A program made the position numbers and the translations under genes. 64,000 nucleotides of DNA, from the NCBI GenBank assembly GCA_006503475.1, contig RSEH01000116.1:80519-144518 (forward strand), written 5' to 3'. This stretch comes from Stentor roeselii (Eukaryota > Ciliophora > Heterotrichea > Heterotrichida > Stentoridae). Positions 5,588 through 52,187 of the stretch are shown here, in pieces; the first letter of the stretch is position 1; every line of letters begins with the position of its first letter. Below the pieces are notes generated by a model. It made no database searches, was not told the origin of the DNA, and saw only the letters and a list, made by a program, of their open reading frames with translations.

Positions 5588-5594
5588 TAATATT

Positions 5595-5945: not shown

Positions 5946-5963
5946 TATGTATTAGAATAACTA

Positions 5964-6287: not shown

Positions 6288-6421
6288 TTATAACCATAAA
6301 ATGTCAGAAGCAGAAAATCTTACGAGGAGTAAGTAGTTTAAGTGCATAGATGTCAATCAGGCATTCAAGTCCTAAGTCCAACAACCAAGTTCAGAATAAA
6401 TAGCTTTAAGGAGGATTATAA

Positions 6422-6955
6422 ATGGGATTGAAACATAAAAGAACTCCTTCAGCAGTTCCGAGTATCAGCAAAATGACGAAAGAAGAAGAAGGACTGCTCT
6501 TCACTTCAAACCTGACATTTGACCCTCCTTCTGAGGAACAAGCTCGGCTTAAATTTAATTTAAACCCAGTCAAAACTGGAAAAATCATCAGAAATTCCAG
6601 TCTTTCCTCACATGTTGAATTCTGCAGCTTTCTTTCCAGTAGTGTTGAAGGGTTCATTGAAGACCTTAATACTATTCAGGATGAAAGGAAAAATGAATAC
6701 CGAAAAGTAGATAAAGATAAACCTCTCACTGGAGACCCTTTGTTCGAACTGAAAATCGTTGTCATGGAGATTCAGGAAAAAAGAGGGAAAATGAGAGGAA
6801 AACAGGAAAAAATTAGGAAAAATTTGAAATTAAGACTATGGCAAATGTTTAAAATGGAAACTGCTTCTGAAACTGATACTGAAAGAAGGGTTGAAAATCT
6901 TAGGTATTCTGGAGATACTGTCATGGGACCTGGCAGTTCTTTTTACTTTGAATAA
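6422..6955 (+). CDS. Hypothetical protein
   Basis: 177 residues, not recognised. The start is supported by GGATTATAA directly before the ATG, the mirror image of the eL30 start. The N-terminal part is low complexity with Ser/Pro and an EEEG stretch. Residues about 60-120 alternate hydrophobic and acidic positions. Residues 115-145 are strongly basic and helical (EKRGKMRGKQEKIRKNLK). The C terminus is polar. No signal peptide or membrane segment is seen, so it is probably cytosolic or cytoskeletal and possibly ciliate-specific. The codon use is like that of its neighbours, which argues that it is real. Confidence 0.6.
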   Translation: MGLKHKRTPSAVPSISKMTKEEEGLLFTSNLTFDPPSEEQARLKFNLNPVKTGKIIRNSSLSSHVEFCSFLSSSVEGFIEDLNTIQDERKNEYRKVDKDKPLTGDPLFELKIVVMEIQEKRGKMRGKQEKIRKNLKLRLWQMFKMETASETDTERRVENLRYSGDTVMGPGSSFYFE

Positions 6956-22781: not shown

Positions 22782-23344
22782 TTATATTCAAATGATTATT
22801 GAATTTTTGGGATCATAGATGAATATTGGGTTGGAAAGAATGGAAGGAAAAGAAAATTTAAATCAAGTTGATGAATTTTAGAAGTTTAAGGATTCATGGA
22901 ATCGGCTTTCATTTTTTAGAGGCTTTTTAAATTTTTATGAATATTTTTAAGGATTTTAGATGATTGGAATTTTTTTGGAAATTTTTAGAGATTAGGGTAA
23001 TATTGTGGGGGGATTAGATTCATTTTAGGATAAATTGGAAAATTTTAGTGGTTTTATGTGGGTATTGGGAAATTAATAAACATATTCTTCTCTCACTCAT
23101 GAAAACAACCTCTTTACGCCTTTCATTAAATTAGAATTAAAAGATGGCTAAGAAGTAACAAAGATTCCTAAACTTTCAATAATATAAAAACCCCTCTATA
23201 ACACCAGCAATTCTCTCACAAAAAAAAAAAAAATTTTCAAAGTCCCTCAAAACCATCTTCACCCCTCTGATCACCCCTTCATCCCTCAAAATCGCTTAAA
23301 CCCCACCCAATCCTTCGCGAAATCCCAAATCTCACCCAAATAAA
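22782..23344. other. Divergent intergenic region with a sharp strand-composition switch (563 bp)
   Basis: The left half (to about 23080) is G/T/A-rich on + (for example gtggggggatt), while the right half (about 23090-23344) is C/A-rich (acccctctataacacc, cacccctctgatcacccc). Seen from each flanking gene the leader is therefore C-rich and G-poor. A 13-A run lies near 23220. Nothing coding is seen. Confidence 0.6.
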
Positions 23345-26077
23345 ATGCAAGAATATACCGAAAAGTTAGAATCACTAATAAAAGACAGCAGTTTGCTAAT
23401 CGAGTCCTTTCTAGAAATCGGCCTGGACACATCAGACCTGAAAGATTTCCAAGACTACGGCGACTTAGAGCTTCGAGTTCTAAGCCAGTACCCTCCAAGT
23501 GGATTAAACAAAACCTCGATACCAGAGAACCTTCCAACAGTACATTTCACATAGTTTTGCTTTCCGAACGGCGTGGAAGTATTGAAAAACGATCGTCCAA
23601 GTCCTCAATACTACAGCAATATCTTGACAAATGAGCATGGAGGACTTTTATACTGCAACATTTTAAAGATTTTTGAAGAGGTTCTGCCGAGTGCGAGGGA
23701 TTCTTATGAACTTGTCATGGAAATTGCAGATAGTCCGTACCTCACACCTGACTTGAATAAGAGCTTTTCGTCTGAAGGACAGAGGACTGTCGATGAAGCC
23801 AGGTCTTATCGGCTTTCTCATGAGTTTAAAGTTGTCAGGAAGGAAGTTTTTATGGTTCCTAAGGCGCTGGTTATTATTTCTACACAGCCTTTGTTTAATA
23901 CTTTTGCGAAACTGCTTCAAGGGCTTTACATGGCTTCGAAAAAAAGACTTGTGTTGCCTTTAGAATGCTTTGTTAGTCATTTGGTCACTCAGATTCCGCA
24001 TCCTCCGAAGGGGAAGACTGTGATTAAGTATCATCTTGATAATACTAGCGTCAAAATATCTCTTCCGCCTTGCAACCGTTTGCCGGTTTTCGATATGGAT
24101 ATTGGGGTTCTATTTAATTGTCTTGACCTTGAAAATGTACTGGCTTTGTTTAGAGATGTGCTTTTGGAGAAGAGTACGGTTTTTATTTCAAGCTCAGAAG
24201 AGAAACTTTCAATTTGCACCAATATTGTGACAGGTCTTTTGTTCCCTTTTCATTGGAATATGGTGTTTGTTCCCATTCTACCTCATACCTTGCTGGATTA
24301 CTTGTACTCCCCAGTCACTTTTATTTTTGGTGTCCACTCAAAACACTTAGAAGAGGTTTATGCAAGGGTTAATGACTCAGTCACAATCGTCGATTTAGAC
24401 AGCAACCGGTTTTTAGTAAGTAATTCACTATCTTATACCAGAAAATCATTCAGAACAGTTGAATTACCCAAATTACCAGACCACTACAGCCGAAAACTGA
24501 GGAAAAGATTGATCAATGTGTTAAATAAATATCCCAGTTCAAAAGGAAGACCAATGAAGCTGACGAATCCTCACATCGACGACACAAACTGTCAACTAAT
24601 CAGGAACCACTTTTTCCAGTTCTTCGTTTCCATCCTGATCGACTACAAAAAGTTCATGAACTTCGAAGCAAGTCAAGGAAATTCCACATTTAACAACACG
24701 CAATTTCTCCAAAACTCTTCAGAAAAAGAGTTTTTCAGTCTATTTCTAGAAACCCAAATGTTCAGCAACTTCTGCCAAAGTCGTATCCAGCCGAAAAACA
24801 TTGAAGAGCACTGCGAGGGTTTATTATTCGATGAAGAAATAATCGCGAAGCAAAATCGTTCAAAGTTCAACACACATAAAGGCCAACTGGTGTTTAAAAC
24901 AGATACATCAGAGGACCACAAGCAAGTCCATGTTGTTCCGTCAATTGAAGAAGTCTTTCAAGTTACTGAAATTTCAAAGTACTCATCTTTTCCTGTACTT
25001 AGGCTGGATGTTCTGACAAGGCTGCCCTTTCCTTCAACCCGTCCTCCACGTCTCGTAGAAAGACTAGAAGCAAGTCCAGCCTCAGCCCCCGACTGGCGAA
25101 CAGAGGACGAGTGTGTCTTAACAGCATGGATGGACCTCTGGGGTTTATTCCTTCACTGTCAGCACCATTCAGAGCTCTCAACTCGAATGTCCGAACTAAC
25201 ATCAGTTGCAGGAAAATTACAAAAAAAGACAAATTTAAACACGATCCCAATTTACAAGCATCTTTTAGAAGTCTGCTTTAACACCCAGCCATCTCTGGCT
25301 TTAGAAATTTACAGTTTTATGAGTTCTGCTCGCATTCCAGCTGACGCTGAGACTTTACAACTATTACAGAAAAATGTCAGCAAGTTATACGCGAAGGACC
25401 AGATGATTTTAATGCAAAATACTGGAACTAACATGGTCATCACCCAAGCTGAGAAGACTGTTAAACTTGAAAAGAAGATGAAAAGAATCTACACGAAACC
25501 TGATGATATGAAAGTCTTCGGAAATGACCAAATCGCTTTTATTATCAAAGAAATTTGTAAAAGTTGCGGGAAGAGGCTTAAGGTCGAAGATATTTCAGCG
25601 AAGTGGGTAAGAGGTCCTTATAAGTATGAAAGTGAATGTGCCTGGTGTGGGGAAGTCTTTATTCCCAAGCTTCAGGTAAAAATAGGACTGGAAGTCGCTT
25701 ATTTCAATATAAAGTCTCATGCCATTCGAGAAGAGTACTTGTTTGTATCGCCTTTTATGCTCAGACAACTCGTTAGTGACCTCATTATTTCTAATAAAGA
25801 ACTGAATTTAGAACAGTTCCGTTGTGGATACCCCATGATTTTTTGGAATTGTGTTTGGTATTTCTACAGAAAAGGACTGCCTTTTGAGTTTGTTTTGATT
25901 TATGATGAGGAGAACTACTCGGAATTGATCGTCACGACTGAAGCACCGAAAAGTTTGAATGCTTTTAACTCGGATAAAAACAGTCAGACTGATGTTGACT
26001 TTATGGGCTTTGAAAGGGAAGAGCTGAAGTGGAAGCGGTTCGTTAATTATATTGAAAAATCAGTTGGGTTTATTTAA
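23345..26077 (+). CDS. DENN-domain Rab exchange factor, DENND4-like
   Basis: 905 residues in two exons (23345-23539, 23555-26077). After the splice comes the uDENN entry FCFPNGVEV, then the central DENN core (PKALVIISTQPLFNTFAKLL, FNCLDLENVLALFRDVLLE, SSSEEKLSICTNIVTGLLFP, VPILPHTLLDYLYSP), then dDENN (IRNHFFQFFVSILIDYKKF). A PPR-like helical region with IPIYKHLLEVCFNTQP follows. Near residues 732-775 is a zinc pair (CKSCGKRL...CAWCGEVFIPKLQV), then FVSPFMLRQLV and PMIFWNCVWYFYRKGLP. That C-terminal layout is characteristic of DENND4/MYCBP-type proteins, which activate Rab10-class GTPases. The N-terminal MABP domain of animal DENND4 is absent or very reduced. Confidence 0.82.
23540..23554 (+). 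other. 15-nt intron (DENND4-like)
   Basis: Reads GTACATTTCACATAG, phase 0. Retention ends the protein with an in-frame TAG after 69 codons. Confidence 0.88.
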
Positions 26078-26099
26078 TAATAAACTGATTCATAATAAA

Positions 26100-27839
26100 A
26101 TGAGTGAAGATATTGTGCTTGTTTATATCATTTTAGCGATTATTTACACATTGTTGATGATTTATACTCTTTTAAGGGTTGCTAATACAGGGAAGTTTGT
26201 GAAGATATGGAGACAGGCGAGGTATCTTTATTACTTTCAGTTTTTAGAGATTCTTGTTAGGGCTTGCTCGTTTTGGATTATTTGTGCTTTGCCGAGTTCA
26301 GGAATTTTCACAACCAAAAATCTTTCTTTTATCCTTCTTTCTCTTCCCCAAGACTTGATATTATGCAGTTTTATAACCTTATTTTGGATAATGTTAACAT
26401 CAAGTCTCGTAACTCGTTTTAATTCCTCAATAGACCACTCCTCCTCATTCAACGTGAATCAGAAAAGTCTAAAAAGATTCCAAAAAGCATCAAAATACTT
26501 TTTAGTATTCTGGGTGTTAATCGACCTAATCCTTTACCTTCTCGTATTCCTCGAGAAGGTGAATCCATTTGACCTAGTGATCCAGCATTCCGCTTTAAAC
26601 TTCTCAGTGAGTCTAATAGTTCTCATCAGTATCGGAGCAGCTCAGATAAAATACTCAGGAATTCCATACATAAGCGAAAAGGCTCAAAAACTGATGAAAA
26701 AAGTCTTGTCTGTCATTCTTGCCTGGTCTTTCGGGATCATTATTCATGGAATTCTTTACCTGATCCGAGAAGAAAACCTTTTAAGCCAAAGTTCAAATTT
26801 AAGTGGAACCGAGTCAGGAAATTCAGTAACTACCGTGATTTTTATCTTTGATTTGTTGGTAACTGAAGTGATTTGTTTTATTTTTGTGAATGAATTTAGC
26901 TTTTTCGAGATTTTTTCATTGGAAATCGATGATTTTCCTAGATTACCTCTTATTGAACCTTTGACTCCTGTTGACTATGCTGCTCCTAAGATGGATTTGA
27001 ATATCAGGGTGGAGGATTTGGTTTTTAAAGAAGAGTTTTCAGGTGATAGGAATAAGATGGGAACGCTTTTTATCGGATTTTTTAAAGACCAGGAGGTTCT
27101 GATACGAAAACTTCACTTGCCTCGCATTAATAATTATGTCACTGAAAAAATTTATGAAGACCTGGCAAGTCTCTCTTCTATTTGCTGCCCTCATTTCAGC
27201 TCACCTTTAGGAGTTTGCATTCACGGTGAATACGTGGAAATAGTTTTGAGTTACTTTAAACAAGGGTCTTTATTCCACAATTTACATAAAAAACGAATTA
27301 ATTACAATGAAAAATTGAAAATTGCAAGAGAAATTGCCTTTTGTGTTAAAATTATCCATAATATGGAACAGGTTCATGGACACCTCACTTCTTTAAACGT
27401 GATGCTTGACGATGCAAATAGAGCTTATGTCACTGATTTAGGACTCGCTCATTTGAAGAAGTTCTGTTCGATTACTTCAGGATATTGCAATAAAAGTGCC
27501 TGGTCTTCTCCTCAAATTCTTAATGAAGCTGGAAATGTTGCGAATAAAGCTAGTTCTTATGATGATGTCTATAGTTTTGGAATCATTTTATGGGAAATCA
27601 TCACTGATGATACTCCTTTTCCTGCAGTTAATATCAAACAACTGCAGAATATGCTGAATCAAGGATTTAGACCTGGAATTCCTGTGAATGTTGATAAGGA
27701 TTTAGCGGAATTGATGAAAAGTTGCTGGAATATTGAACCTAAGAATAGGCCGAGTTTTGACTTGATTCATAATACTTTGTGTTTGGTTTTAGCGAGGGAA
27801 AATGGAACTGAGAGCTTTTTTAGTGCTGAAGGGTTTTAA
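26100..27839 (+). CDS. Seven-helix membrane protein fused to a pseudokinase-like domain
   Basis: 579 residues from the ATG at 26100 (after CATAATAAA, 22 bp beyond the DENND4-like stop). Residues about 5-275 hold seven hydrophobic segments: IVLVYIILAIIYTLLMIYTL, the region of residues 40-62, 75-100, 130-150, 160-180, 195-215 and 235-258. The layout is receptor-like or TOM1/THH1-like. Residues about 300-575 are a protein kinase fold of TKL type: a weak Gly loop, a VAIK-like LIRK (K337), VHGHLTSLNVML where HRDLKxxN is expected (426-433), DLG at 446-448, an APE-like WSSPQIL, and the C-lobe DDVYSFGIILWEI. The catalytic Asp of HRD is replaced by His, so phosphotransfer is doubtful, while the Lys and the metal-binding Asp remain. 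It may act as a scaffold or nucleotide sensor. Confidence 0.8.
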   Translation: MSEDIVLVYIILAIIYTLLMIYTLLRVANTGKFVKIWRQARYLYYFQFLEILVRACSFWIICALPSSGIFTTKNLSFILLSLPQDLILCSFITLFWIMLTSSLVTRFNSSIDHSSSFNVNQKSLKRFQKASKYFLVFWVLIDLILYLLVFLEKVNPFDLVIQHSALNFSVSLIVLISIGAAQIKYSGIPYISEKAQKLMKKVLSVILAWSFGIIIHGILYLIREENLLSQSSNLSGTESGNSVTTVIFIFDLLVTEVICFIFVNEFSFFEIFSLEIDDFPRLPLIEPLTPVDYAAPKMDLNIRVEDLVFKEEFSGDRNKMGTLFIGFFKDQEVLIRKLHLPRINNYVTEKIYEDLASLSSICCPHFSSPLGVCIHGEYVEIVLSYFKQGSLFHNLHKKRINYNEKLKIAREIAFCVKIIHNMEQVHGHLTSLNVMLDDANRAYVTDLGLAHLKKFCSITSGYCNKSAWSSPQILNEAGNVANKASSYDDVYSFGIILWEIITDDTPFPAVNIKQLQNMLNQGFRPGIPVNVDKDLAELMKSCWNIEPKNRPSFDLIHNTLCLVLARENGTESFFSAEGF

Positions 27840-27852
27840 AGTAGATGATTTA

Positions 27853-27970
27853 ATAGAATAGGAGTGTTAATTTATCTATTGATAAAAATCATATTTTAAT
27901 TGGATAAAATGATAGAATAGAAGTGTTTATTAAATTATTCAACAAAAATAATGTTTAAAGCAAGGAAAAA
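27853..27970. repeat. Imperfect tandem pair, about 59-bp period
   Basis: Two diverged copies starting atagaataggagtg (27853) and atagaatagaagtg (27912) fill most of the short gap between two convergent genes. Identity is moderate and falls towards the end of each copy. Confidence 0.4.
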
Positions 27971-28030
27971 CTTTATTCTAAATAATCCTCACTAAAACTC
28001 TATAATTCTTAAATAATCATGAATTAATCT

Positions 28031-31000
28031 TTACTTCTTTCTAATACAACTTGAATGGTATACACTTCCATCCTGGTAAACAATCACAGTTTCCTGGCTA
28101 TTGATCATCATCGTGAGATCCACCTCTTTCCGGCACCTCTTACAGAAAAAGTCGTCACTACAAATACCTTGAGAGTAGTAATCAATGAGTTTCTCAGTAA
28201 TCATCGATCGATCTTTCAGCACAAGTGAGTTAACCCGATCAATGATGCTCTCCGTATAAGCAAGTCTTTGAAGAGCCAAAAAAGTACTATCCTTAAACTG
28301 TTTAAAAGGTAAATCTCCAAATTGCCTCGTGATATTCGTGACCAGAACATCAAAGTCAACCTTACTTATCATATCTTCAAGAGCGTCTTTAATACATTCA
28401 TCAAGTTTTTCAATCAATTTCGGAAATTTATCCTTAAATGCTAAAAGTTCAGTATAAACTTCAAAGACTTTATTGATAAACAAATACCAGATTTCATTAA
28501 ACTCTTCATCATTAAAAACTGGAGAATTCCTTTTACATATATTTTTTCCATTTCTGACACTTTTCGCAAGTTTTTCTATCATCTCATCAGTGACTAAACC
28601 TCCAGATTTAATGACTTTTGTGACTTGGTACTTCAAGTCTTGAGTAAGTTTCGTTTGTTCTAAAATCGCTTCACGCATAAGTCCAAGTTTTTCATACATA
28701 AAAGAAATTCCTTCCGAATGTTTAAACTGCTTCACAATATTCAAACATTCATGAAACGAGTAGTCTTCAACATTCATTAAAAAATCCATCAACTCATCAC
28801 CTCGATACTGGCAGAGTAATTTAACATTCAACAAAATCATTTTTTCATCTAATTTATTTTGACTTTTCACCAAATCCGACAAATACTGCATCTGCAACTT
28901 TGGAGCTGCTGAGAGTTGTTCAATGATAAGATGATGGTCATTACGAAAGCAACTATTCATGAATTTTCCAAGTAAGTCAGTGTCGATACTTGACAAGTCT
29001 TTCAAATTTTTCAAGATCAAGTCTTTGAAATCGTCGATTTCGTCTTCAGGAAGTTCTTGAAAAATGTCTGTGATCAACTTGAAGACTTTTTTTTGCTCGA
29101 CTTTCGACTCGGACTGGACGAGACATGTGATGGCTTCTTGGTAGTCTTTTGAAGCTTTGTAAAGATAGGACATGATGTCTAAATGACGAGTGTTTTCTGC
29201 GAGTTTTAGTAATTCTATCAGGTCTGATGATTCTAAAGGCTCTGAGGATTGGATTAATGATAAGATAAACATGCTGTGCTCTGATGAGTTTCGATGTTTT
29301 ATTAAAAATTTTGAAATGTGGATTTTTTCTCGGCTTGCGAATGTCGCTTTACCGGATTTCATTAGGTTTACTGCGAATAGGAAAAATTTTGGGGTGAAGG
29401 CTTCTTGAGAATTGAGAAGATAGGAGAATTTTTCTAGGATTGACTTGTATAAAATTGAGTTTTTTGAAGAGGTTAATATTGAGAATAGGTCTTTGTCTTG
29501 GAAAAGGATTTCTATTGTTTTTAAACATGCATCTGTGTCGATTTCTAAGATATTCTCTAGATGCTTCCTCTTAAACAACCAATCACAAAGTTTAACAAGA
29601 ATGCCTTCACGATTATCAGTCCTCACAGTTTCCTGAGGAAAACTAGTACCAGTAAACGAAAGATGAAGATACCACAAAAGACTATACGCAAAATACTGCT
29701 TCCTTGGCCCTTCCTGCGCTTTTTTCATCAACTTGAATATTTTTTTCAAGGGGTTAACAAAACTTTGCAAAGAACTTTGAGTGCAGATATAAATATAAGC
29801 ATTAATCAAATTGTATTTATCACAAATAGGTGCAAGTAATTTCGAGTCAAGCCCCTGAGGCTCAATATGCAAAATCAAATTTTCAAGAGAATCCAACAAA
29901 TTCTTCGCAATAAACGGTTCAACAATTTTCCCTAAACAACCCGAAGGAACAGCTCTAACAACTCCATTAACCATATACTGCAAAACTTCAAAAGCAAAAA
30001 TTTCCACATTTTCCTTTCCAAATCCAGCAAAATACTCAAAAATTTCTCCAAAAAGTAAATCATTCATGAAATACTTAACACAAAATTCGATAACAACTGG
30101 AATTTTAATCTTTACCTCAATTTTTTCATCCTTTGCATATTTATTCAAAATTTCTCCGAGTTTCAACTTGACTTCAATCTTTCCAGGGACGACGTCCATA
30201 AACGCAAAGCTATTGTCTTGCAAAAAAATGCATCCAAGAGAAAAGGCTTCTGCCCACTTTTCCCCAGCGACGAGTGCATCGAGACATGAGTTCCAAATAA
30301 AAAGACTTAACATGCAAAGTCTTTCTTTTCCAAGGACTATTGTTTTTCCTTGACCGTTACTTGATATTGAGTTGTGGAAAGTGTAGCAAGGAAGACCTTT
30401 TTTGTCTTTTAGGAAGTTTTGTTCTTTTAATTCCATGTTTACACGGATTTGTTGAACGAGTTGTTTTGTTCTTCCTTCGAATAAATAGATGAAAACGTCG
30501 GAATGTCTTCCCATTGTTGCTAGGATGTTTGTTTTTAACCACTTCATTGCGCAGACGTCTTGAATGGTTTCGAAGCACAGGGAAGCGTTGAAGCCTTCTT
30601 TTAATAGGTTGTAGACTGCTATTGTTGTTGAGTAACTTATGGCTAGGTGGTAACGGTCTGCTGCCTTCACCCAAGCGATGTATGGAGTTGATTCTGGATT
30701 GATAGAAGAAATTTCGAAACTAGCGGATTGGTCGGACATCGAATATATCAAAAGACGTGAATAGCTCAATATAAGTAAAAATTTTTTCCCTAAGTCAGAA
30801 TCATTAAGCAATTCAAAAGTAACAATTGTAGTATCCCCAGTCTCAATAAGTTCAGGTTTAAAAGAATAATTCAATACTTTTTTCTTAAGATTGATCTGGT
30901 AAAGTTTATTCGTCAAACAAATGATTTGATCAGGTGATCCTGAATACCTGAGTCTAAGAACAGGCGAGTTAAAGTTCGAAAAGGTTTTGATATGTTTCGA

Positions 31001-31363
31001 AGACTTCAAGTCAAAAAGCGAGACCTGTCCTGAAGAGTACCCTGCAACAATCTGAGAACTTTCCCAGATATCCATCGAAACAACGGCGGAATTCTGTTTC
31101 TTTGGAGGTTGTAAAGTCATGATTTCACTTTCACGGTAGTTAAATATATGCAAACCACCTTGAGTACTTCCTAAAACCATCGAATCAGGCAGGGCGAAGA
31201 CTGTAGAGATTGTTGAAGAATCGATGTTTAGAAACTTTGACTCGATCACTGGAAGCTCTTTCTTTAACAGCTCTGAAGTCATTGAAAAATTAGACCTGAG
31301 ATCGTCTTTTTTGTGAAATTTTTCAAGTTTGGATTTGTGAAGGACTTCGATAGGATCGCTCAT
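28031..31363 (-). CDS. VPS8: VPS8, CORVET endosomal tethering subunit
   Basis: 1110 residues without introns. VPS8 is a CORVET subunit that binds Rab5 and tethers early endosomes. The N-terminal half is a beta-propeller (STVFALPDSMVLGSTQGGLH, VAGYSSGQVSLFDLKSSKHI, MGRHSDVFIYLFEG). The family core follows: EPQGLDSKLLAPICDKYNLI NAYIYI, then the helix YSLLWYLHLSFTGTSFP, both strong VPS8 signatures. An alpha-solenoid follows. The C terminus is a RING-like zinc site (CSDDFFCKRCRKEVDL...YHSSC). Length fits VPS8 in other protists. The start at 31363 is supported by a decayed second copy of the gene's first 46-50 codons at about 38080-38216. No A/T box directly precedes this ATG, unlike most genes here. 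Confidence 0.85.
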   Translation of the reverse strand: MSDPIEVLHKSKLEKFHKKDDLRSNFSMTSELLKKELPVIESKFLNIDSSTISTVFALPDSMVLGSTQGGLHIFNYRESEIMTLQPPKKQNSAVVSMDIWESSQIVAGYSSGQVSLFDLKSSKHIKTFSNFNSPVLRLRYSGSPDQIICLTNKLYQINLKKKVLNYSFKPELIETGDTTIVTFELLNDSDLGKKFLLILSYSRLLIYSMSDQSASFEISSINPESTPYIAWVKAADRYHLAISYSTTIAVYNLLKEGFNASLCFETIQDVCAMKWLKTNILATMGRHSDVFIYLFEGRTKQLVQQIRVNMELKEQNFLKDKKGLPCYTFHNSISSNGQGKTIVLGKERLCMLSLFIWNSCLDALVAGEKWAEAFSLGCIFLQDNSFAFMDVVPGKIEVKLKLGEILNKYAKDEKIEVKIKIPVVIEFCVKYFMNDLLFGEIFEYFAGFGKENVEIFAFEVLQYMVNGVVRAVPSGCLGKIVEPFIAKNLLDSLENLILHIEPQGLDSKLLAPICDKYNLINAYIYICTQSSLQSFVNPLKKIFKLMKKAQEGPRKQYFAYSLLWYLHLSFTGTSFPQETVRTDNREGILVKLCDWLFKRKHLENILEIDTDACLKTIEILFQDKDLFSILTSSKNSILYKSILEKFSYLLNSQEAFTPKFFLFAVNLMKSGKATFASREKIHISKFLIKHRNSSEHSMFILSLIQSSEPLESSDLIELLKLAENTRHLDIMSYLYKASKDYQEAITCLVQSESKVEQKKVFKLITDIFQELPEDEIDDFKDLILKNLKDLSSIDTDLLGKFMNSCFRNDHHLIIEQLSAAPKLQMQYLSDLVKSQNKLDEKMILLNVKLLCQYRGDELMDFLMNVEDYSFHECLNIVKQFKHSEGISFMYEKLGLMREAILEQTKLTQDLKYQVTKVIKSGGLVTDEMIEKLAKSVRNGKNICKRNSPVFNDEEFNEIWYLFINKVFEVYTELLAFKDKFPKLIEKLDECIKDALEDMISKVDFDVLVTNITRQFGDLPFKQFKDSTFLALQRLAYTESIIDRVNSLVLKDRSMITEKLIDYYSQGICSDDFFCKRCRKEVDLTMMINSQETVIVYQDGSVYHSSCIRKK

Positions 31364-31590
31364 GAAATGGAAGGTTAATAATCTGAACTAATGAAATGAT
31401 TTAGATAAGGATTTTATGTTAATACTTTTTGGAAGGTTTTCAAATTGTGGGATTGAAAGTGAAGACTTTTTATGTCATTTGGATTTTGACTTTTTCAAGA
31501 TGCATTCTTTATGTTTTTATGAAGTGGAAGGGCTTGTCTCTTGGATAACTGGTTGAAGTCTGAGATTCTTTTTCTTTCAGGTAGAAGGTG
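31225..31590. repeat. Left copy of a reciprocal flanking duplication (intact VPS8 start + decayed tail of next gene)
   Basis: Matches 38080-38455 in the same orientation, nearly without gaps for about 150 bp around the VPS8 ATG (offset 6853) and with small indels after that (offset 6861 at ataactggttgaag). Up to 31363 it is the working VPS8 gene. From about 31396 to 31590 it is, on the minus strand, a stop-ridden copy of the last 60 codons of the gene at 38266-39711 (for example RMHLEK for RMDLEK, FNPTI for FKPKI). I estimate about 70-75% identity by eye. Confidence 0.85.
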
Positions 31591-32552
31591 TAATAGCAAA
31601 ACCTAATTTATATATAAAAGGAATTATTTTTAATTAAATAAAAGTGTTATAAGGTTGATTAATTAGAATATTTATAGCTAATTTATTCATTAGTTTATTA
31701 GCCAATTTGACTAATGTTTAATTGAAATTACTCATATTGATATTCACTTTATGATAACTATTTTATGATAACAACTTAATAGTATGTAGATATATAAGAT
31801 ACTTTAAAACAAAGGGTGAAAAATAATTATCAAAACTTAAAAATTTTACTATCATTAATTAGATTTCTAATATTAAGTAAACTTTTATATAAGTTTTTAA
31901 ACCTCTAACGGAAATTATAAAGGGCAAATCGATTTGAAAAGGTTTCTAATTTAATCGGAATTCTATTCCCTTGTTTTAAAATTAGTAATAAGTATTTCAA
32001 CAACATTAGGCGGTTTAAATTTAGGAAAAGCAGAGCGATATATAATATTGTTACGATATCCTCTTCATTCCCGTCAAGACCTCACCTTTTAAGTAAAGAG
32101 TATATAAAGGTTGAAGAATTTTAAACTCTTTCTTATTACTTTAAGCAATCTATAAACCAATAATTTAATTGAGGATATTAGGTTGATTCATATGCAGAGG
32201 CATAAAATATAAGTTTATTAAAATTGCGATATATCTAAAAATATAGAACAATTATATATAAGATCTATGTAGATATTGATTAAAGAAACCAGGCTTATAA
32301 CTAATCTTCATTAAAAATAGATTTTTACTTTATTAATTCAATAAAAATTACCATACAAAAATACAGTTATTCTCTTAATTAAGAAAAGACTTCCTGAATT
32401 GCAAATCAACACAAAAATTCTTCTTTGATATTAGATAGAGTTTAATTTTACTAAAATTTATAAAAAATTATCAGTGATTACCTCATAATTCATTTTGTAT
32501 AATCAATAAATATAGACAGTATAAATTCTATAATTTAATACTTTATAAAAAT
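31591..32552. other. AT-rich non-coding DNA at the island's left side
   Basis: No frame of useful length and no recognised element. From 32463 on it matches the upstream region of the second peptidase gene (aaaaattatcagtgatta...), so the last 90 bp belong to the duplicated unit and probably hold the promoter. Confidence 0.5.
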
Positions 32553-33890
32553 ATGTCTGAATACTTTCATCGTAGTCCCGTTCATTTTTTTGATGTCGCA
32601 TTAAGACAGCCTTTTCTTTCAGATCATTTCGACCCCAACAGCATTTCTAAACTCTTGACTCCTCAGCAGCAACATTTGACAACCTTCATTGGAAAAATAT
32701 ATCCTTCTGGAACATGTTTTGTTTTCTCTAAGCCTAAAGGGAAAATCTTTATTCGAAATCAAAGAGTTCTGGCATTTGCTCTTACAAACTTCCACGTTGT
32801 TTACGATATTATGACTAGAAAAGTAAATGACAGCAAATATGTTTCTTTTGATTTTTCAGACAATCCAAATGTCCAACCTCATTCTGATAACCTAAATTAT
32901 GATTATATATTCAGCCCGATACTCGAATTCCAAACAAAACTTACTGGAAAGCAATTATCAGACAACTCCAATTTTTATTGTTTACCAAATGACATCGCGA
33001 TTTTGGCAATCTATCAGTCTATCCCATTTTCCAGAAGAGTACCAGATCTCGAAAGTTGTCTTGATTTTCATGTGTTGTCATTAGCAGAGTGCCATGAAAT
33101 CTCTGATTATAATGAAGAACAAGTTATTATTTCAGGTTATCCTACAGGAACTAATAGTATAAATTACATGATTCCAGATTCCCATGATATACCAAATGCA
33201 GATGTCAAGGTAAGAAATGGATTCCACAATTTCAAACATCAAGTAATTTCTGAAGGGTTTTTAAAACTATCACACACAGGCATGGCACAACTTCAACTTT
33301 CATCGACGTCTGGAATGTCAGGGTCGCCTATACTGAGTGGAACTGCAAGAGATTCAAAAGTTCTGGGAATATATTGCGGAGGGCCTCCTCTAGAAGGACA
33401 GTTAGAGATAATTGAAGTGGTAAGACATTTAATTGATAAAAAATACGAAAATGCTTATGAGGTCTTTTTAACTTTACCTTTTGAAGATAGTAGTTTATAT
33501 GAAAGCATGAGTAAATACTATTCTTTCAAAACTGATGTGCTAAATTTACTTTATCTTGTTGGTCCTGAAAAGACCAAGGCTTCTATACTTAGTAAAGACC
33601 CAGAAATAGAAAATAGATTATCCAAAATTTGTGATCCAAGAGCTAATTGTGAAACTATTTTAACAAATCTACAGAATATGATTAATCCACTGCTGATATC
33701 TACTGTTGGAAATTACAAGAATAAAGATATTTTTAATTATAACATTGGGATTTCAGCTGAAACAGAAGCTTTTATTTATATAAGGCAGTTTCAAAGGATT
33801 GTAGAACATCTAGATTTTGAATGTGATTCTGAAGAAGCTTTCAACAGTTTTATATTAAGTCGATTAAATCTTAATTAAAATCATGAAGTT
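32463..33890 (+). repeat. Duplicated peptidase unit, copy A
   Basis: Direct repeat of 35738-37163. It spans about 90 bp of upstream sequence plus the whole coding region and ends within about 10 bp of the stop, after which the copies no longer align. Confidence 0.85.
32553..33878 (+). CDS. Trypsin-like serine peptidase, copy A
   Basis: 441 residues. Residues about 48-280 are a chymotrypsin/HtrA-like fold: GTCFVFSK at the entry, ALTNFHVVYD with H81, PNDIAILAI with D147, and the nucleophile motif STSGMSGSPILSG with S256, then GIYCGG. The triad is complete, so an active protease is likely. There is no signal peptide and no membrane helix, so it probably acts inside the cell. The C-terminal 160 residues are helical and of unknown role. 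HtrA-type PDZ domains are not seen. The start follows CTTTATAAAAAT. It sits in the island between the two flanking duplications, and a second copy lies 3274 bp downstream. Family assignment is by motif only; substrate unknown. Confidence 0.75.
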   Translation: MSEYFHRSPVHFFDVALRQPFLSDHFDPNSISKLLTPQQQHLTTFIGKIYPSGTCFVFSKPKGKIFIRNQRVLAFALTNFHVVYDIMTRKVNDSKYVSFDFSDNPNVQPHSDNLNYDYIFSPILEFQTKLTGKQLSDNSNFYCLPNDIAILAIYQSIPFSRRVPDLESCLDFHVLSLAECHEISDYNEEQVIISGYPTGTNSINYMIPDSHDIPNADVKVRNGFHNFKHQVISEGFLKLSHTGMAQLQLSSTSGMSGSPILSGTARDSKVLGIYCGGPPLEGQLEIIEVVRHLIDKKYENAYEVFLTLPFEDSSLYESMSKYYSFKTDVLNLLYLVGPEKTKASILSKDPEIENRLSKICDPRANCETILTNLQNMINPLLISTVGNYKNKDIFNYNIGISAETEAFIYIRQFQRIVEHLDFECDSEEAFNSFILSRLNLN

Positions 33891-34049
33891 ATTTAAACTT
33901 AAATCTAGATTTATTACGGGATCAATTAATTCATTCAATAAATATTTTAGATTTATAATCAGTTTAAACTTTAATCTAAAAAAAAGATTTTCCTAGATTG
34001 AAAGTTAAAGATTCACTAGTTTGACTTCAGCTGCTGGAAATTTTTATTT

Positions 34050-34484
34050 TTAGTGAAATTATCGAATTTCGCCTTCCAGGCCACTGATAATATTTCGAGT
34101 TTTCCAAGCCGATTACTTGTAAAGATTAACCACTTGAATTACTTCTTCTGTGAAATGGAAACTGATAACTGAAAGTTTACTTACTTTGTCAGTTTTTGTG
34201 GAAATTATAATTTTTTTCTACATAATCGCTTGCAACAATCATCATTTTTTCTGATTGAAAAATTTAGGATCTACTCGTCGTTGTTTGTGAATCTCAGACC
34301 TTTTCGTTTAAAAGGAAATCCAACTCTTACTAATAACTAGCTTTAGGAATTTCATTTTCTTTACACTTATTATTGGAAAACCTTGAAGCATTGCCTCGTT
34401 TGCCATCCCTTTTTTCTTGCAGTCTGCAATTTGAAGTTCATTGTAAAACTCTTCCGCTTATAGGTAGCCTTTGATCTTAGACAT
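34050..34484 (-). pseudogene. Decayed gene fragment in the island
   Basis: On the minus strand a TTATAAAG box precedes ATG at 34484, and the frame reads MSKIKGYL, a TAA (34458-34460), then AEEFYNELQIADCKKKGMAN and on to FLKLVISK. A further coding-like piece, FPFKRKGLRFTNNDE, follows after a stop. No 15-nt intron removes the TAA. It looks like a small resident gene that has decayed. Product not recognised. Confidence 0.4.
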
Positions 34485-35737
34485 CTTTATAATTTGATAC
34501 CCATGTAGACTGAGTAGATATATGAGAAGTCAATCTGTTTGACTGTTATTTCAAAAAAGTGGTCATTTTCTTAGCCTATAATAAAAATTTAAACAGCCCT
34601 GTAAGTATTATTTTATTAAATTGTATTTTAAGTATTTTTACCGATTATATTTTGAACTTAGCATCTATTTTAAATCCGTGATTTTCAAGCTGAGAATATT
34701 ACAACTTTACTTGATATCCTGCTTGTTTAACAGTTGGTATATACCATTAGAACTCTTTTGGGAAAATCATAAGTTTTTCATGTTTTTGGACAATCTTGAA
34801 ACCGGTAAAACACTTATTCCGAGTTCATTTTGTTTTGGAATATGATAGAGCCTAATGCAAGTTAATCAACTGGAGAATCTGGCATTATAAGTCAAGGAAA
34901 ATCGCTCTGTACCTTATACATCTTCGATGACCTGATCCCCATAAATGATCATCAAATCAAACTAAATAAATTACAAGCAAACAGCAAGTTAAACTTTAGC
35001 CTCTTAATCAGCTGCGGAGTTTCTATTTCATTATTAAACTAGTTTTGTAAACTCTGTGTCTCTGAACCATCTACATCATCGCACTTAACTTAAATATTAT
35101 CAAGGATGCTTCGCTCTCGGTTTAAAAAATAGTTTCCTCATACTCTAAGATTTTACTTATTAACTGACTCCTAAAATTGTTAAGTAGGTATCCAGGCTGA
35201 TAATATTGGGTTTTCAAGGCAGGCCCTTAGAATAATTCAATTAAACCTAAAAAATCTCACACATATCTGGCTTTTGATTTCCCTGTGAGTGTTTTCGAGG
35301 TTTCCTCTCTAGGGAAAAGCTTAAAAAATTATTCTAACTGTTTCTTTAGTATTTCGCACAACTTCGAGGCAAAGATTTTGAGCAGTTAGCATTTGAAAGC
35401 ACTACACATGTACTTTCAAGTAAGTAATCAAAAAAATTGAAAATTTGACCATTTCTTCAGTTTCAAAAAGATTTGGGAAGGTTTTTTAAAGTTTTTTTCC
35501 TTATTTCTGCGATTTTCAGCTGCGAAGCTTGAAGACATAGTAGACCGTCTCTACATTATAATAGAGATTAGCCGAAGGCAAGTTATCACTGGTTCTTTCA
35601 GATAAATAAAATTTCAGCTTGTTATCAGATTTTCATTAGCGTATAAAATTTCTCGCATTTTAACAATAAATTTGTATCATTATTATTTTTTCGCTAGTTG
35701 AGAAGAAAATTTAGCTTTTTCGAAGTCTTCACATTTT
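34485..35737. other. AT-rich non-coding spacer between the two peptidase copies
   Basis: No supported gene. A 74-codon + frame (34621-34845) starts without a proper context and is Phe/Tyr/Leu-rich, so it is rejected. Segments near 35345-35390 and 35500-35540 loosely resemble 37280-37330 and 37420-37460, which hints at an older duplication of the spacer. Confidence 0.4.
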
Positions 35738-37163
35738 GAAAAATTATCAGTGATTACCATATAATTCATTTGTATAGTCCATAAATATAGACAATATAAT
35801 TTTATTATTTAATACTTTATAAAAATATGTCTGAATACTTTCATCGTAGTCCCGTTCATTGCTTTGATGTCGCATTAAGACAGCCTTTTCTTTCAGATAA
35901 TTTCGACCCCAACAGCATTTCTAAACTCTTGAATCCTCAGCAGCAACATTTGACAAACTTTATTGGAAAAATCTATCCCTCTGGAACATGTTTTGTTTTC
36001 TCTAAGCCTAAAGGAAACATTTCTATTCGAAATCAAAAGGTTCTGGCGTTTGCCCTTACAAACTTCCACGTTGTTTATGATATTATGACTAGAAAAGTAA
36101 ATGACAGAAAATATGTTTCTTTTGATTTTTCAGACAATCCAAATGTCCAACCTCATTCTGATAACCTAAATTATGATTATATATTCAGCCCGATACTCGA
36201 ATTCCAAACAAAACTTACTGGAAAGCAGTTATCAGACAACTCCAATTTTTATTGTTTACCAAACGACATCGCTATTTTGGCAATCTATCAGTCTATCCCA
36301 TTTTCCAGAAGAGTACCAGATTTTGAAAGTTGTCTTGATTTTCATGTGTTGTCATTAGCAGAGTGCCATGAAATCTCTGATTATAATGAAGAACAAGTTA
36401 TTATTTCAGGTTATCCTACAGGAACTAATAGTATAAATTACATGATTCCAGATTCCCATGATATACGAAATGCAGATGTCAAGGTAAGAAATGGATTCCA
36501 CAATTTCAAACATCAAGTAATTTCTGAAGGGTTTTTAAAACTATCACACACAGGCATGGCACAACTTCAACTTTCATCGACGTCTGGAATGTCAGGGTCG
36601 CCTATACTGAGTGGAACTGCAAGAGATTCAAAAGTTCTGGGAATATATTGCGGAGGGCCTCCTCTAGAAGGACAGTTAGAGATAATTGAAGTGGTAAGAC
36701 ATTTAATTGATAAAAAATACGAAAATGCTTATGAAGTCTTTTTAACTTTACCTTTTGAAGATAGTAGTTTATATGAAAGCATGAGTAAATACTATTCTTT
36801 CAAAACTGATGTGCTAAATTTACTTTATCTTGTTGGTCCTGAAAAGACCAAAGCTTCTATACTTAATAATGACCCAGAAATAGAAAATAGATTATCCAAA
36901 ATTTGTCATTCAAGTCTAGATCCTGAAACTATTTTAACAGATTTACAGAATATAATCAATCCCCTGATGATATCTACTGTTGGATACTACAAGAATAAAG
37001 ATATTTTTAATTATAACACTGGGATTTCAGCTGAAACAGAAGCTTTTATTTATATAAGGCAGTTTCAAAGGATTGTAGAACATCTAGATTTTGAATGTGA
37101 TTCTGAAGAAACTTTCAATAGTTTTATATTAAATCAGTTAAATCTTAATTAAAATTATGACTT
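35738..37163 (+). repeat. Duplicated peptidase unit, copy B
   Basis: Direct repeat of 32463-33890; see copy A. The proteins differ at 26 of 441 positions by direct comparison. Confidence 0.85.
35827..37152 (+). CDS. Trypsin-like serine peptidase, copy B
   Basis: 441 residues, same length as copy A and about 94% identical. The triad residues H81, D147 and S256 and their surroundings are unchanged. Differences cluster in the first 95 residues (8) and in the C-terminal 100 (16, including six in a row at about 362-367). From about residue 214 to 345 the proteins are identical. Both copies are free of stops and frameshifts, unlike other sequence in this island, so both are probably expressed and under constraint. 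The upstream 90 bp, with CTTTATAAAAAT before the ATG, are also shared. Confidence 0.75.
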   Translation: MSEYFHRSPVHCFDVALRQPFLSDNFDPNSISKLLNPQQQHLTNFIGKIYPSGTCFVFSKPKGNISIRNQKVLAFALTNFHVVYDIMTRKVNDRKYVSFDFSDNPNVQPHSDNLNYDYIFSPILEFQTKLTGKQLSDNSNFYCLPNDIAILAIYQSIPFSRRVPDFESCLDFHVLSLAECHEISDYNEEQVIISGYPTGTNSINYMIPDSHDIRNADVKVRNGFHNFKHQVISEGFLKLSHTGMAQLQLSSTSGMSGSPILSGTARDSKVLGIYCGGPPLEGQLEIIEVVRHLIDKKYENAYEVFLTLPFEDSSLYESMSKYYSFKTDVLNLLYLVGPEKTKASILNNDPEIENRLSKICHSSLDPETILTDLQNIINPLMISTVGYYKNKDIFNYNTGISAETEAFIYIRQFQRIVEHLDFECDSEETFNSFILNQLNLN

Positions 37164-38079
37164 GATAATAATTTAAATCTAAATATATTATAAAATTCAG
37201 TCTTTTGATCCATCAAAACTTTATTTTTATAATCACAACATAATATCTAAGTAACAACTGAGAATGTTTTACAGTCGTTCCTTCTGTAGTTTGTGGAGCT
37301 TCAAAGCTAATATCTTGGAGCAGTTAAAATTAGAGAGGATTTTTAGTAATGGCTAGTAAAACGTTAGAAAATTCGAATTTTTAACTTTGTTCAATCATAC
37401 AGGAACTGGGATTGTTTGTTATGTCTTTCTTGGTATTTCTGCAATTTTAAATTTGAAACTTGAGAACTCGAAAACTATCCCCGGAATTTTTATATTAATG
37501 AGCGAAAGGGCTCCAATAATTAAGTTTCATCTTTCAGGACCTTCAAATCTAGCTATTCACCGGCATTTCGGAGAAATCAAGTGAGACACATCGACTAAGA
37601 AGGGAATGTCATAAACTTCTGAGAAAGCTAATCGAGTTTTTGCTTGAAATGAAAGTTGGAGTTAAGAGCTTCTTAACCTCGAAACTCCAGTAATTTACAT
37701 TGAATCATTTCCGAAATATCATTCTTTTTAATTGTTTGATATGTTGATTGTTTTCTGCCGTGATTAATTTTGGTGACTAGATTTGATTATTTAATTTTAT
37801 TAGAAAGATTTAACTATATGGAGAATGAGCATGGAATTTTTCTATTATCAGTTCATATTTTTATCAAGGTGTAGAAAATCCTTCAAAAGATATTCAAATT
37901 AATTTTCAAGTAAGCGACTTGCAGTAAAATTAATCAGGCTGAAATAAAAACATTATTCAAAAGTTTAAAACAGAAACCAGCTCAATTCAAATCCAAAATA
38001 AAACTCCTCAAATACCCTAAAAAAAATTAAATCTAAACAGAATTAAAATATCGGCGCCTTGCGAGGTCTGCTCTAAAGT
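37164..38079. other. AT-rich non-coding DNA at the island's right side
   Basis: No gene supported. A 65-codon + frame (37387-37584) has no initiation context. Short stretches resemble the spacer upstream of copy B (see 34485-35737). Confidence 0.4.
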
Positions 38080-38455
38080 CTTCAGGGATTCGATTAAATC
38101 AGCAGGAGTTATTTTTTTAACATCTCTGTATTCATTGAAATATTCAACTTTGGCTTTTCTTTTTTGTGAAACTTTTCCAGTTTTTACTTTTGACGGACCT
38201 ATAAAGGATAGTTCATGGAATGGTAGATTAATGATGTGAACTGATGAAATGATTACAGCTAAGGATTACTTTAAAGACTTTTTAGGAACGTATTTCAAAA
38301 TCTTGGGCTTAAATGTACAGCCTTTTATTTCTTCCATTCGAACTTTGTCCTTTTCAAGATCCATTCTTTGCTGTTGTTTATGGTCTCTAAGAGCTTGTCT
38401 CATGAATAACTGGTTGAAGTCGGAGATGCTCTTGCTTTTCGTGTGAATCACTGGA
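38080..38455. repeat. Right copy of the reciprocal flanking duplication (decayed VPS8 start + intact tail of next gene)
   Basis: On the minus strand, 38216-38080 is a broken copy of VPS8 codons 1 to about 50: it keeps the ATG (38216-38214) and KLEKFHKK, but has two early stops and a one-base insertion in a run of seven A, after which MLKK/IES positions align again in another frame. From 38266 up it is the intact end of the neighbouring gene. It is the mirror case of the left copy. Confidence 0.85.
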
Positions 38456-39711
38456 GGATCAATTTTAGCCTTCGCAAAAATCAAATTTTTTTCATTAGGA
38501 TTCAAAGTTTTCAATAAATTTTCCATGCTTTCACAGAATTCTTTGTAGCTTATAAATGTTTTCGCCTCTTGAATTTCTACCAGCAGAGGATCCAGTACTC
38601 TGACAAGATCTGGTCCCAGTTCTTTGCAAGTAATACTTTTGGAGTGAAGCCTTCCGAAAGAGTCAGGGCGAAGTTTTTTGAAAATTTCTTCGAATTTATC
38701 TTTTTTCTTCTTATCAAGGATTTCTTGAGTCTTTTGACCGGCTTCTAAATCAACTGGTGCATAAGGAAAGTCGATTTCTCCTTCTGAAGCTCTTTTTTTA
38801 TGTTTGTAAAGATCTTCCCAAACATTATCTTCTCTTTGTCGTTCTATTTTTTTACCGATTTGAGGCTGGAAATACTTTTGGCCTGTAACAGGGTCAATAT
38901 CAATTTGAAGTTGCTTCCTAAGTTCATCCAAATTCTTCTCCCTATCCTTCTCACTATTAATAAGCCTATCAACAACAAGAGGAGTTTCAGGAATCTTAGG
39001 AAAATCAAAGCAATACCCAATTTTTTCACAATCCTCTTTCTTCCTTCCCAATCCCTCACCTTTTAAATTACTTTCCCTTTCCGAGTTGCACAAAGAAGCC
39101 TGTCGACTTCTCCTGACCTGAGCATCTTTATAAAGTTCTTCAATCCGATTACTAGAGTTAATCGATTTTCGAGCGATTCTCTGAGTCTTTAAGTTAAGTT
39201 TAGGTGTAAAAGTCAACTCAGACTGAGAATTTGTAGTCGGTGTTTGAAACTTATACAAAGAAGAGGCTTTGCTAGTTAAGTTACTCGCGATTTTTATTGA
39301 ATTTTGATTGATTTCTGGCTTTTCTTTTAAAGTTTCTTTTAAGTTTCTAGCAGTTTGAACTCGAAGCATGTGATGATTTACTAGTTTTAGTTCTTTTGAT
39401 TGCATGGATTCTCGATACATTCGTTCTCCTGGGTTTTTAAAGGATGTTGATGAGCAGTTAGGTAATTTTCCGATGATTTTAGTGATGGCTTGATGCTCTT
39501 CGATTAGGTCTTGCATTATTTGAGATACTTTTCGAAAGAGGACTGGTTCTGGTACATTCGTTATGTCGTTTTGGATCATAAAATTGTGCACTGTTAGAGA
39601 AAGGTCGTCATGTTCGAAGATCCTTAAATTGGCTTCCTGTCCGTAGCCTATATTAACTGAAATGTTCAATAGTTCTGCACCTCTTTTCAAATCTTCTGAG
39701 ATTTCAGTCAT
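38266..39711 (-). CDS. Hypothetical ciliate cytoskeleton-type protein
   Basis: 481 residues, no named family. It is polar and helical, with a repeated short motif of the type F-x-P-x-[IL]: LTFTPKLN near 165, YFQPQIGK near 280 and CTFKPKILK close to the end. This motif is common in ciliate proteins of axonemes and cortex, by my general knowledge, and proves nothing about function. An EF-hand-like or helical segment lies near 395-425 (FISYKEFCESMENLL). No signal peptide or membrane segment. Its last 60 codons exist as a decayed copy at 31396-31590. The ATG follows CTATTAATAA. The frame stays open for about 80 codons after its TAA, but that stretch is the decayed VPS8 copy. Confidence 0.65.
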   Translation of the reverse strand: MTEISEDLKRGAELLNISVNIGYGQEANLRIFEHDDLSLTVHNFMIQNDITNVPEPVLFRKVSQIMQDLIEEHQAITKIIGKLPNCSSTSFKNPGERMYRESMQSKELKLVNHHMLRVQTARNLKETLKEKPEINQNSIKIASNLTSKASSLYKFQTPTTNSQSELTFTPKLNLKTQRIARKSINSSNRIEELYKDAQVRRSRQASLCNSERESNLKGEGLGRKKEDCEKIGYCFDFPKIPETPLVVDRLINSEKDREKNLDELRKQLQIDIDPVTGQKYFQPQIGKKIERQREDNVWEDLYKHKKRASEGEIDFPYAPVDLEAGQKTQEILDKKKKDKFEEIFKKLRPDSFGRLHSKSITCKELGPDLVRVLDPLLVEIQEAKTFISYKEFCESMENLLKTLNPNEKNLIFAKAKIDPPVIHTKSKSISDFNQLFMRQALRDHKQQQRMDLEKDKVRMEEIKGCTFKPKILKYVPKKSLK

Positions 39712-51702: not shown

Positions 51703-51799
51703 TTTATATAAGTTGATAGAATAACTTAGTAAAGAGTAAGATGATGGATTTTACCTAATTGAAATTTTAAAATAATGATTATTTTAGTATAAAGGTTTT

Positions 51800-52187
51800 G
51801 ATATGCATGGTTTTTAAGATGCTTGATGAGAGTATTTCTTGGAAATAAGATTTTCGATATGCAAGGTTTTTAAGATGTTTGATGAGAGTATTTCTTGGAA
51901 ATAAGATTTTCGATATGCAAGGTTTTTAAGATGTTTGATGAGAGTATTTCTTGGAAATAAGATTTTCGATATGCAAGGTTTTTAAGATGTTTGATGAGAG
52001 TATTTCTTGGAAATAAGATTTTCGATATGCAAGGTTTTTAAGATGTTTGATGAGAGTATTTCTTGGAAATAAGATTTTGGTATTCAAGGTTTTAAGATGC
52101 TTGATGAGAATATTTCTTGGAAATAAGATTTTCGATATGAAAGGTTTTTAAGTCGCTTGATGAGAGTTCTTCTTGAAAATAAATAGA
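51800..52187. repeat. Minisatellite, seven copies of a 56-bp unit
   Basis: Copies begin at 51800, 51856, 51912, 51968, 52024, 52080 and 52134. The unit starts gatatgcaaggtttttaag and ends ggaaataagattttc. Copies 2 to 5 are identical or nearly so; copies 1, 6 (54 bp) and 7 carry changes, the usual picture of a tandem array growing from the middle. 56 is not a multiple of 3 and no frame runs through it. It lies upstream of NOC2 and downstream of PheRS, both on the minus strand. Confidence 0.95.

Follow-up and report, generated by a model that had tools for sequence, protein, structure and literature searches.

Results and discussion

Gene content and arrangement of the locus

The stretch analysed here, referred to as the window, comprises 64,000 nucleotides of the heterotrich ciliate Stentor roeselii (assembly GCA_006503475.1, contig RSEH01000116.1, positions 80,519 to 144,518), and the locus under study lies within it between an intact VPS8 gene and an intact gene named here gene B. 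Two copies of the junction of these resident genes (about 1 kb) exist in the same orientation; one breakpoint lies at VPS8 codon ~43 and the other inside or upstream of B. The sequence between the two host copies (about 6 kb) is a mosaic in which copies of sequences from other parts of the genome predominate, among them two peptidase genes, P1 and P2, and a relic that matches contig C298, where the region 23001-30000 was used for comparison and is referred to as L041. From left to right, host copy 1 is followed by 365 bp without assigned source, P1, a segment of the C298 type (gene E and a PI3-kinase, up to L041 ~6139), P2, the same C298-type segment re-entered about 0.49 kb further back (L041 ~5650) and continued into a zinc-finger-like gene (to ~6725), and host copy 2. 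The coordinates are listed in Table 1. The junctions were placed to about 0-10 bp by the ends of alignments, amid a divergence of 25-35%.

Table 1. Features of the VPS8-gene B locus, in window coordinates.
Feature	Coordinates	Strand	Evidence
VPS8, intact, 1110 amino acids	28031-31363	-	Pfam TPR_Vps8 1.1e-21, Beta-prop_VPS8 2.6e-12
Left copy of the host duplication (VPS8 start, intergenic DNA, decayed B)	31236-32092		Alignments, shuffles
Decayed left copy of B, reaching B codon ~216	31410-32092	-	Stops, frame shifts, net loss of ~110 bp between the significant blocks
365 bp without assigned source, following decayed B and preceding the P1 cassette	32093-32457		218/300 shuffles against the rest of B; 14/300 against DNA upstream of B
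P1 cassette, open reading frame 32553-33878 (441 amino acids) with 95 bp before and 83 bp after	32458-33961	+	Alignment to P2, Trypsin_2 E 2.9e-4
Left part of the relic: copy of gene E and PI3-kinase (L041 ~2387-3337, 5100-6139)	33963-35733	-	61%, E 4e-48; 58%, E 4e-33
Left copy of the ~0.49 kb kinase segment (L041 ~5650-6139)	35308-35733		35308-35578 against 37246-37509, extension to 35733
P2 cassette, open reading frame 35827-37152 (441 amino acids)	35734-37235	+	Alignments to P1 and relic
Right part of the relic: N-terminal part of the kinase (L041 ~5650-6511), upstream flank, zinc-finger-like start (to L041 6725)	37246-38084	-	Alignment, reading frame; 66%, E 3e-30; 78%, E 2e-14; 60%, E 2e-17
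Right copy of the host duplication (decayed VPS8 start, intergenic DNA, part of intact B)	38089-39066		Alignments, shuffles
Decayed VPS8 start, cut off at codon ~43, where the relic block adjoins	38089-38216	-	Stops, alignment ends
Gene B, intact, 481 amino acids	38266-39711	-	Open reading frame, genome family matches

Duplication of the VPS8-gene B junction

An earlier reading of this DNA from the sequence alone, referred to here as the sequence-only reading, had described a repeat of about 360 bp at both ends of the spacer in the same orientation. Pairwise alignment of the two flanks bears this out, since positions 31236-31577 and 38089-38438 are direct repeats on the same strand with 261 of 351 positions identical (74%, E 2e-62). 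The score of 370.7 exceeded all of 300 dinucleotide shuffles, the best of which reached 151.1, so that a chance similarity of the flanks is ruled out. The repeat itself therefore stands; its length, however, was underestimated. A second collinear block, 31922-32092 against 38892-39066 (69%, E 9e-20, 0/300 shuffles), which first surfaced in a genome search with the query 31560-32552 as a match inside gene B, brings the duplication to at least 978 bp on the right (38089-39066), i.e., at least 0.98 kb. The spacing between the two blocks is about 110 bp shorter in the left copy than in the right, and the region between them, compared left against right, shows no significant similarity when taken alone (85/300 shuffles). 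A search of the 44.4 Mb genome with the query 31200-31650 found two matches, which are the two repeat copies, and no additional flank copy elsewhere; such searches score the best candidates only, and the absence of further copies holds at that sensitivity.

Beyond the second block, positions 32093-32460 are not significantly similar to the remainder of gene B (218/300 shuffles). Compared with the DNA that lies upstream of B, the same stretch gives a borderline match (14/300 shuffles), and for this reason the left copy may extend beyond B, towards ~32457, undetected. Positions 32093-32457, which formed part of the query 31560-32552, found no other match in the genome. Further VPS8 sequence to the left of 38089 was not found (38/300 and 23/300 shuffles), nor was similarity between 33962-34060 and gene B (174/300 shuffles). 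Traces of the peptidase or the kinase relic to the right of B, which were sought because they would be expected had both once followed B, were likewise not found there (114/300 and 170/300 shuffles).

The decay of the two copies is reciprocal, in agreement with the sequence-only reading. VPS8 is open on the left, where the duplication takes in its first ~42 codons, and its right copy carries four in-frame stops within 42 codons, whereas for B the right copy is open and the left one contains stops and frame shifts. Codon positions 1, 2 and 3 differ by 23%, 19% and 43% in the VPS8 pair and by 17%, 21% and 27% and 23%, 27% and 30% in the two blocks of B, small samples in each case, which fits one neutral and one constrained branch. 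The decay of the inner halves is thus upheld, but they would have been truncated already at the duplication where the breakpoints fall in both genes. A tandem duplication from VPS8 codon ~43 into or beyond B must give a whole VPS8, a B that is cut or deprived of function, a cut VPS8 start and a whole B; a second breakpoint inside B leaves both inner pieces truncated from the moment of duplication, and one upstream of B the VPS8 piece alone. Reciprocal half-pseudogenes at the borders of such an island are therefore what tandem-duplication breakpoints in two genes are expected to leave, and no history of reciprocal loss is needed. The duplicated junction also supports the proposal that VPS8 and B were formerly direct neighbours.

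The relic block and its counterpart on C298

L041 contains gene E (227 amino acids), a PI3-kinase gene (1145 amino acids; PI3_PI4_kinase E 2.6e-62) and the start of a zinc-finger-like gene. Gene E had no match in a Pfam profile search, and an EF-hand or EF-like label considered for it was therefore dropped. The relic aligns with L041 in five collinear blocks: 34047-34829 with 2491-3337, 34798-35570 with 5100-5918, 37259-37581 with 5664-6002, 37580-37665 with 6175-6262, and 37660-38084 with 6310-6725. Judging from this collinearity, it is a decayed copy of a segment that is kept intact on C298, which begins near the 3' end of gene E and finishes inside another gene. Relative to C298, the left part of the relic lacks about 1.76 kb inside the kinase, and its two ends were examined by shuffling (33963-34046, 9/1000; 35580-35733, 0/1000). 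On the right, the relic extends into the first ~20 codons of an open frame and ends at 38084, five bases before the VPS8 homology begins at 38089; to the eye, this frame resembles a C2H2 zinc-finger protein. The sequence-only reading had noticed a relic in the spacer, and its presence is confirmed, now with an identity as a gene E/PI3-kinase/zinc-finger-like segment. A third peptidase was considered for the relic and rejected, as tblastn with P1 and P2 gave no match in the window beyond these two genes with a meaningful E-value and the block matches the C298 genes instead.

The peptidase genes and their family

The P1 and P2 cassettes are 94% identical over 1505 bp, which include about 95 bp 5' and 83 bp 3' of the open reading frame. 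Their scores against the Pfam family Trypsin_2 (22.1 and 22.2 bits) lie below the curated cut-off of 27.6; His, Asp and Ser motifs, presumably those of a trypsin-like peptidase, were read by eye. The family is dispersed, with 33 matches in the genome, 24 without and nine with internal stops, where the figures count matches rather than genes and contigs C8 and C105 contribute several rows each. On contigs C99, C64, C165 and C2, open peptidase copies adjoin stop-ridden matches to a gene of 535 amino acids, which is intact beside the peptidase at C22:20955. Because open peptidases sit beside decayed matches to this neighbour gene, at least part of the family is taken to spread by way of DNA segments that drag pieces of the neighbour along. 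In a protein-level search for other duplicated open reading frames, covering the window and nine loci, only VPS8 with the relic and P1 with P2 were found. The comparison of the DNA upstream of P1 (32093-32457) with the upstream regions of six paralogues supports no claim: with 100 mononucleotide shuffles each, C2 gave 0/100 and the others 9-83/100, and the C2 score of 191.7 barely exceeds the null maximum of 190.6. Contigs C209 and C421 both start at one and the same base of a peptidase paralogue (L022 1-868 and L024 1-868) and are 91% identical over these 868 bp, with no match beyond them within the 2126 bp compared, so that a shared contig break, a chromosome end or an assembly effect may be involved.

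Host direct repeats were compared between nine peptidase rows from eight loci, picked among the 33 genome matches, and 28 of the 29 non-peptidase open reading frames of at least 150 amino acids in the window (31 minus P1 and P2, with 6422-6955 left out), using flanks of about 2-5 kb. At E<=1e-6, direct repeats span the peptidase in three of the nine rows (P2, C22:20955 and C8) and none of the 28 control genes; at E<=1e-3, the figures are three of nine and three of 28. The remaining six rows (P1, C99, C64, C2, C165 and C105) show no spanning repeat within about 4 kb, P1 being counted among them since its flank copy lies further away. The contrast was drawn post hoc, and the association of peptidase loci with host direct repeats is suggestive. 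On C8, a direct repeat with 62% identity (L047 4394-4580 and 6418-6621) flanks a decayed peptidase of the P1/P2 family, which adjoins a second, divergent trypsin-like gene and a patatin-like gene. In the C22:20955 region, a piece of the 535-amino-acid neighbour recurs across the peptidase with 69% identity (L040 4942-5062 and 7847-7970) and looks like the remnant of an earlier tandem unit that has decayed. At both loci, the repeat-bearing stretches were searched against the genome and matched nothing but themselves.

These repeats, together with the shared ends of P1 and P2 and a decayed copy on C105 that starts matching at about the same 5' point, could be taken to mean that the peptidase is a mobile cassette of about 1.5 kb with fixed ends, or a captured complementary DNA, whose insertion makes long host duplications. 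We consider this very improbable. By eye, the ends show neither terminal repeats nor poly(A), and the Pfam matches of P1 and P2 include no mobility domain; most of the spacer matches gene E, the PI3-kinase and the zinc-finger-like gene. The copies at C22:20955, C99, C64 and C165 share much longer upstream DNA and thus moved as larger segments, and at C22:20955 and C8 some distance separates the repeats from the peptidase. A transposable element would be expected to leave a constant short target duplication, but the duplications here measure about 0.49 kb and at least 0.98 kb, six of the nine peptidase rows have none in the stretches compared, and three of the control genes have one at the relaxed threshold. 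It is also unlikely, though slightly less so, that the peptidase gene forms a separate 1.5 kb unit whose ends are fixed, perhaps a copy captured from a transcript, and has repeatedly been drawn into break repair; if it were, a cellular gene family would spread as a favoured repair template and leave host duplications of half a kilobase to a kilobase behind.

The kinase duplication around P2 and the inner junctions

A relic kinase segment of about 0.49 kb is present on both sides of P2, and the aligned cores of its two copies (Table 1) are 62% identical (E 4e-14). At the left junction of P2, the relic kinase (L041 ~6139) reaches 35733 (0/1000 shuffles) and the homology to P1 begins at 35734. 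At its right junction, the peptidase homology runs to 37235 and the relic kinase resumes at 37246 (L041 ~5650), leaving a gap of about 10 bp. The weakest boundary is the right junction of P1, where the P1/P2 homology ends at 33961 and gene E begins at 33963 (9/1000 shuffles). P2 is thus nested in a duplication of its own, inside that of the host genes.

The same orientation of P1 and P2 would also agree with a tandem duplication of the P1-E-PI3-kinase unit followed by a deletion downstream of P2, two common events that would be enough to account for P2 without any copying of a cassette and that are compatible with other outer events. Such a deletion would need to stop, by chance, at the boundary between peptidase and gene E (33961 and 37235, against 33963 at 9/1000 shuffles and the kinase at 37246), which makes this course unlikely in our judgement, and for the same reason we prefer two uses of the same ~1.5 kb peptidase template as an explanation of these alignment ends.

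Relative ages and probable gene conversion

Ages were expressed as substitutions per site on a neutral branch with bootstrap 95% intervals, assuming one neutral branch for pairs of a decayed and an intact sequence (codon positions 1 and 2) and two for pairs of relics. The values are 0.258 (0.196-0.330) for the host duplication of VPS8 and B, 0.238 (0.187-0.301) for the kinase duplication around P2 and 0.224 (0.145-0.338) for the 3' flank of P1 and P2, and these three agree within overlapping intervals. The right part of the relic has a somewhat higher distance to C298, 0.300 (0.242-0.371), whose interval overlaps with the other three. The earlier suggestion that the event is old is supported.

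The two peptidase genes are far more alike in their coding parts and 5' flank than in their 3' flank, which indicates a probable later gene conversion between them. They show a single difference in 381 positions over codons 215-341 (33195-33575 against 36469-36849), 24 in 642 and 22 in 302 on either side of it, and a distance of 0.052 in the 5' flank, as opposed to 28 differences in the 83 positions of the 3' flank.

Proposed history of the locus

The locus is probably, though far from certainly, an old germline rearrangement of the type described as a cycle of templated insertions. From its anatomy we infer a replicative mechanism and a single episode, the best reading being one episode or a few close ones rather than necessarily a single event, so that two or three events close in time would serve as well. 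In such a course, a break in the VPS8-B region would have been followed by repair or replication that departed from the host template, copied a peptidase, then the kinase locus, a peptidase again and the kinase locus again, and rejoined the host at a site upstream of where it had left, so that the junction was duplicated. The event would have been tolerated and the resident genes would have survived because the duplication leaves each of them one whole copy. Afterwards, decay would have set in both in the truncated inner halves and in the kinase copy, while the two peptidase frames stayed open, and the later gene conversion would have made P1 and P2 alike. The anatomy corresponds to that of a cycle in two respects: a host segment is found on both sides in direct orientation, and the inserts match loci that are still present elsewhere in the genome and from which they were copied (the C298 segment and the peptidase family), save for the 365 bp on the left.

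The sequence-only reading had left two possibilities side by side, an insertion with a long flanking duplication, or a junction that was duplicated in tandem and then filled. That a foreign block lies between two copies of the junction is supported, and the right junction (38084/38089), where the insert abuts the end of the duplication, favours duplication and insertion in one event and counts against later filling. As in that reading, no transposase was seen; within the spacer, the Pfam matches examined for a mobility domain are those of P1 and P2. The term accessory island, by contrast, overstates the case, as the cargo consists mostly of copies of the genome's own DNA, namely a dispersed peptidase family and a three-gene segment, rather than of a mobile element whose ends can be recognised.

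A stepwise history is a possible, less probable alternative. Here the VPS8-B junction would first have been duplicated in tandem, an ectopic segment carrying P1 with gene E, the PI3-kinase and the zinc finger would later have entered at or near the junction, and a local duplication would have made P2 later still. The peptidase family does spread as segments, as the copies on C99, C64, C165 and C2 beside decayed matches to the C22:20955 neighbour illustrate, and the distance of the whole relic to C298 exceeds the other estimates. The position of the insert directly at the duplication junction on the right, however, is unexpected for a later random insertion, and the ages of the host duplication and the duplication flanking P2 overlap. 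The likelihoods that we attach to the alternatives weighed in this study are not mutually exclusive.

Several points weigh against a cycle of templated insertions at this locus. The distance of the whole relic to C298 is 0.347 (0.308-0.385) and lies above the upper limit of 0.301 for the kinase duplication, so the relic block may have arrived first; the excess is perhaps due in part to change in the C298 gene at codon positions 1 and 2. To the right of P2, the kinase homology starts at 37246-37258, and no extension of it towards the P2 end was obtained (969/1000 shuffles). On the left, the end of the insert is not fixed, as 365 bp are without a source, and microhomology at the junctions is unreadable at a divergence of 25-35%. 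The empty site, with VPS8 directly beside B and without the insert, is a reconstruction, and the class itself comes from somatic cancer genomes, so that its extension to a germline case would be an analogy of anatomy.

Comparison with known rearrangements

Cycles of templated insertions are strings of copied segments that return to the host segment and re-replicate it (PMC7025897). The present locus resembles them in that copied segments from several loci lie in a row at a single site in the host, flanked on either side by the re-replicated host segment. The cycles described there are somatic, come from human tumours and had their copy number measured, whereas the Stentor locus is fixed in a eukaryotic genome and decayed, and its mechanism is deduced from anatomy. 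In people, complex insertions whose inserted sites show small changes in copy number have been ascribed to iterative template switching, a form of replicative repair (PMC5120786). The inserted segments and the small copy-number changes at their sites are a likeness; in the patient cases, however, the microhomology of the junctions was read, for which the Stentor junctions are too diverged. Tandem duplications can also arise from nearby nicks in opposing strands by patch-mediated repair (Vaughn and Bennetzen, 2014, as cited in PMC8355091). This process shares the insertion with direct duplication of the target, but PMC8355091 deals with small duplications (<100 bp in its introduction), as opposed to about 0.5 and about 1 kb with kilobases of filler here.

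The peptidases can also be placed in the context of birth-and-death evolution. Gene families of this kind spread by segmental duplication, and the peptidase family resembles them with its open and decayed copies and the pieces of neighbouring genes dragged along, unlike them in that the copies at this locus lie at duplication junctions, twice nested. The feature is real and instructive and not categorically new: a gene junction is duplicated in tandem, and segments copied from the genome lie where the two duplicates meet. As a scar left by evolution, it has an anatomy otherwise described for cancer and disease rearrangements, and it illustrates how new members of a gene family can arise in gene-dense DNA with no evident transposon while the genes on both sides are spared.

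Further observations in the window

Gene B belongs to a sizeable family with 30 matches in the genome, the nearest near-full-length ones being 32-35% identical, and a search of Pfam gave no match for its protein. Apart from the locus itself, the window contains seven tandem repeats of 56 bp with 93% matching (51792-52182), situated between the open reading frames 50206-51702 and 52316-53386. Two identical tandem copies of 52 bp occupy positions 62901-63005, about 1 kb from the end of the contig, and the last base of the window is the end of contig C22.

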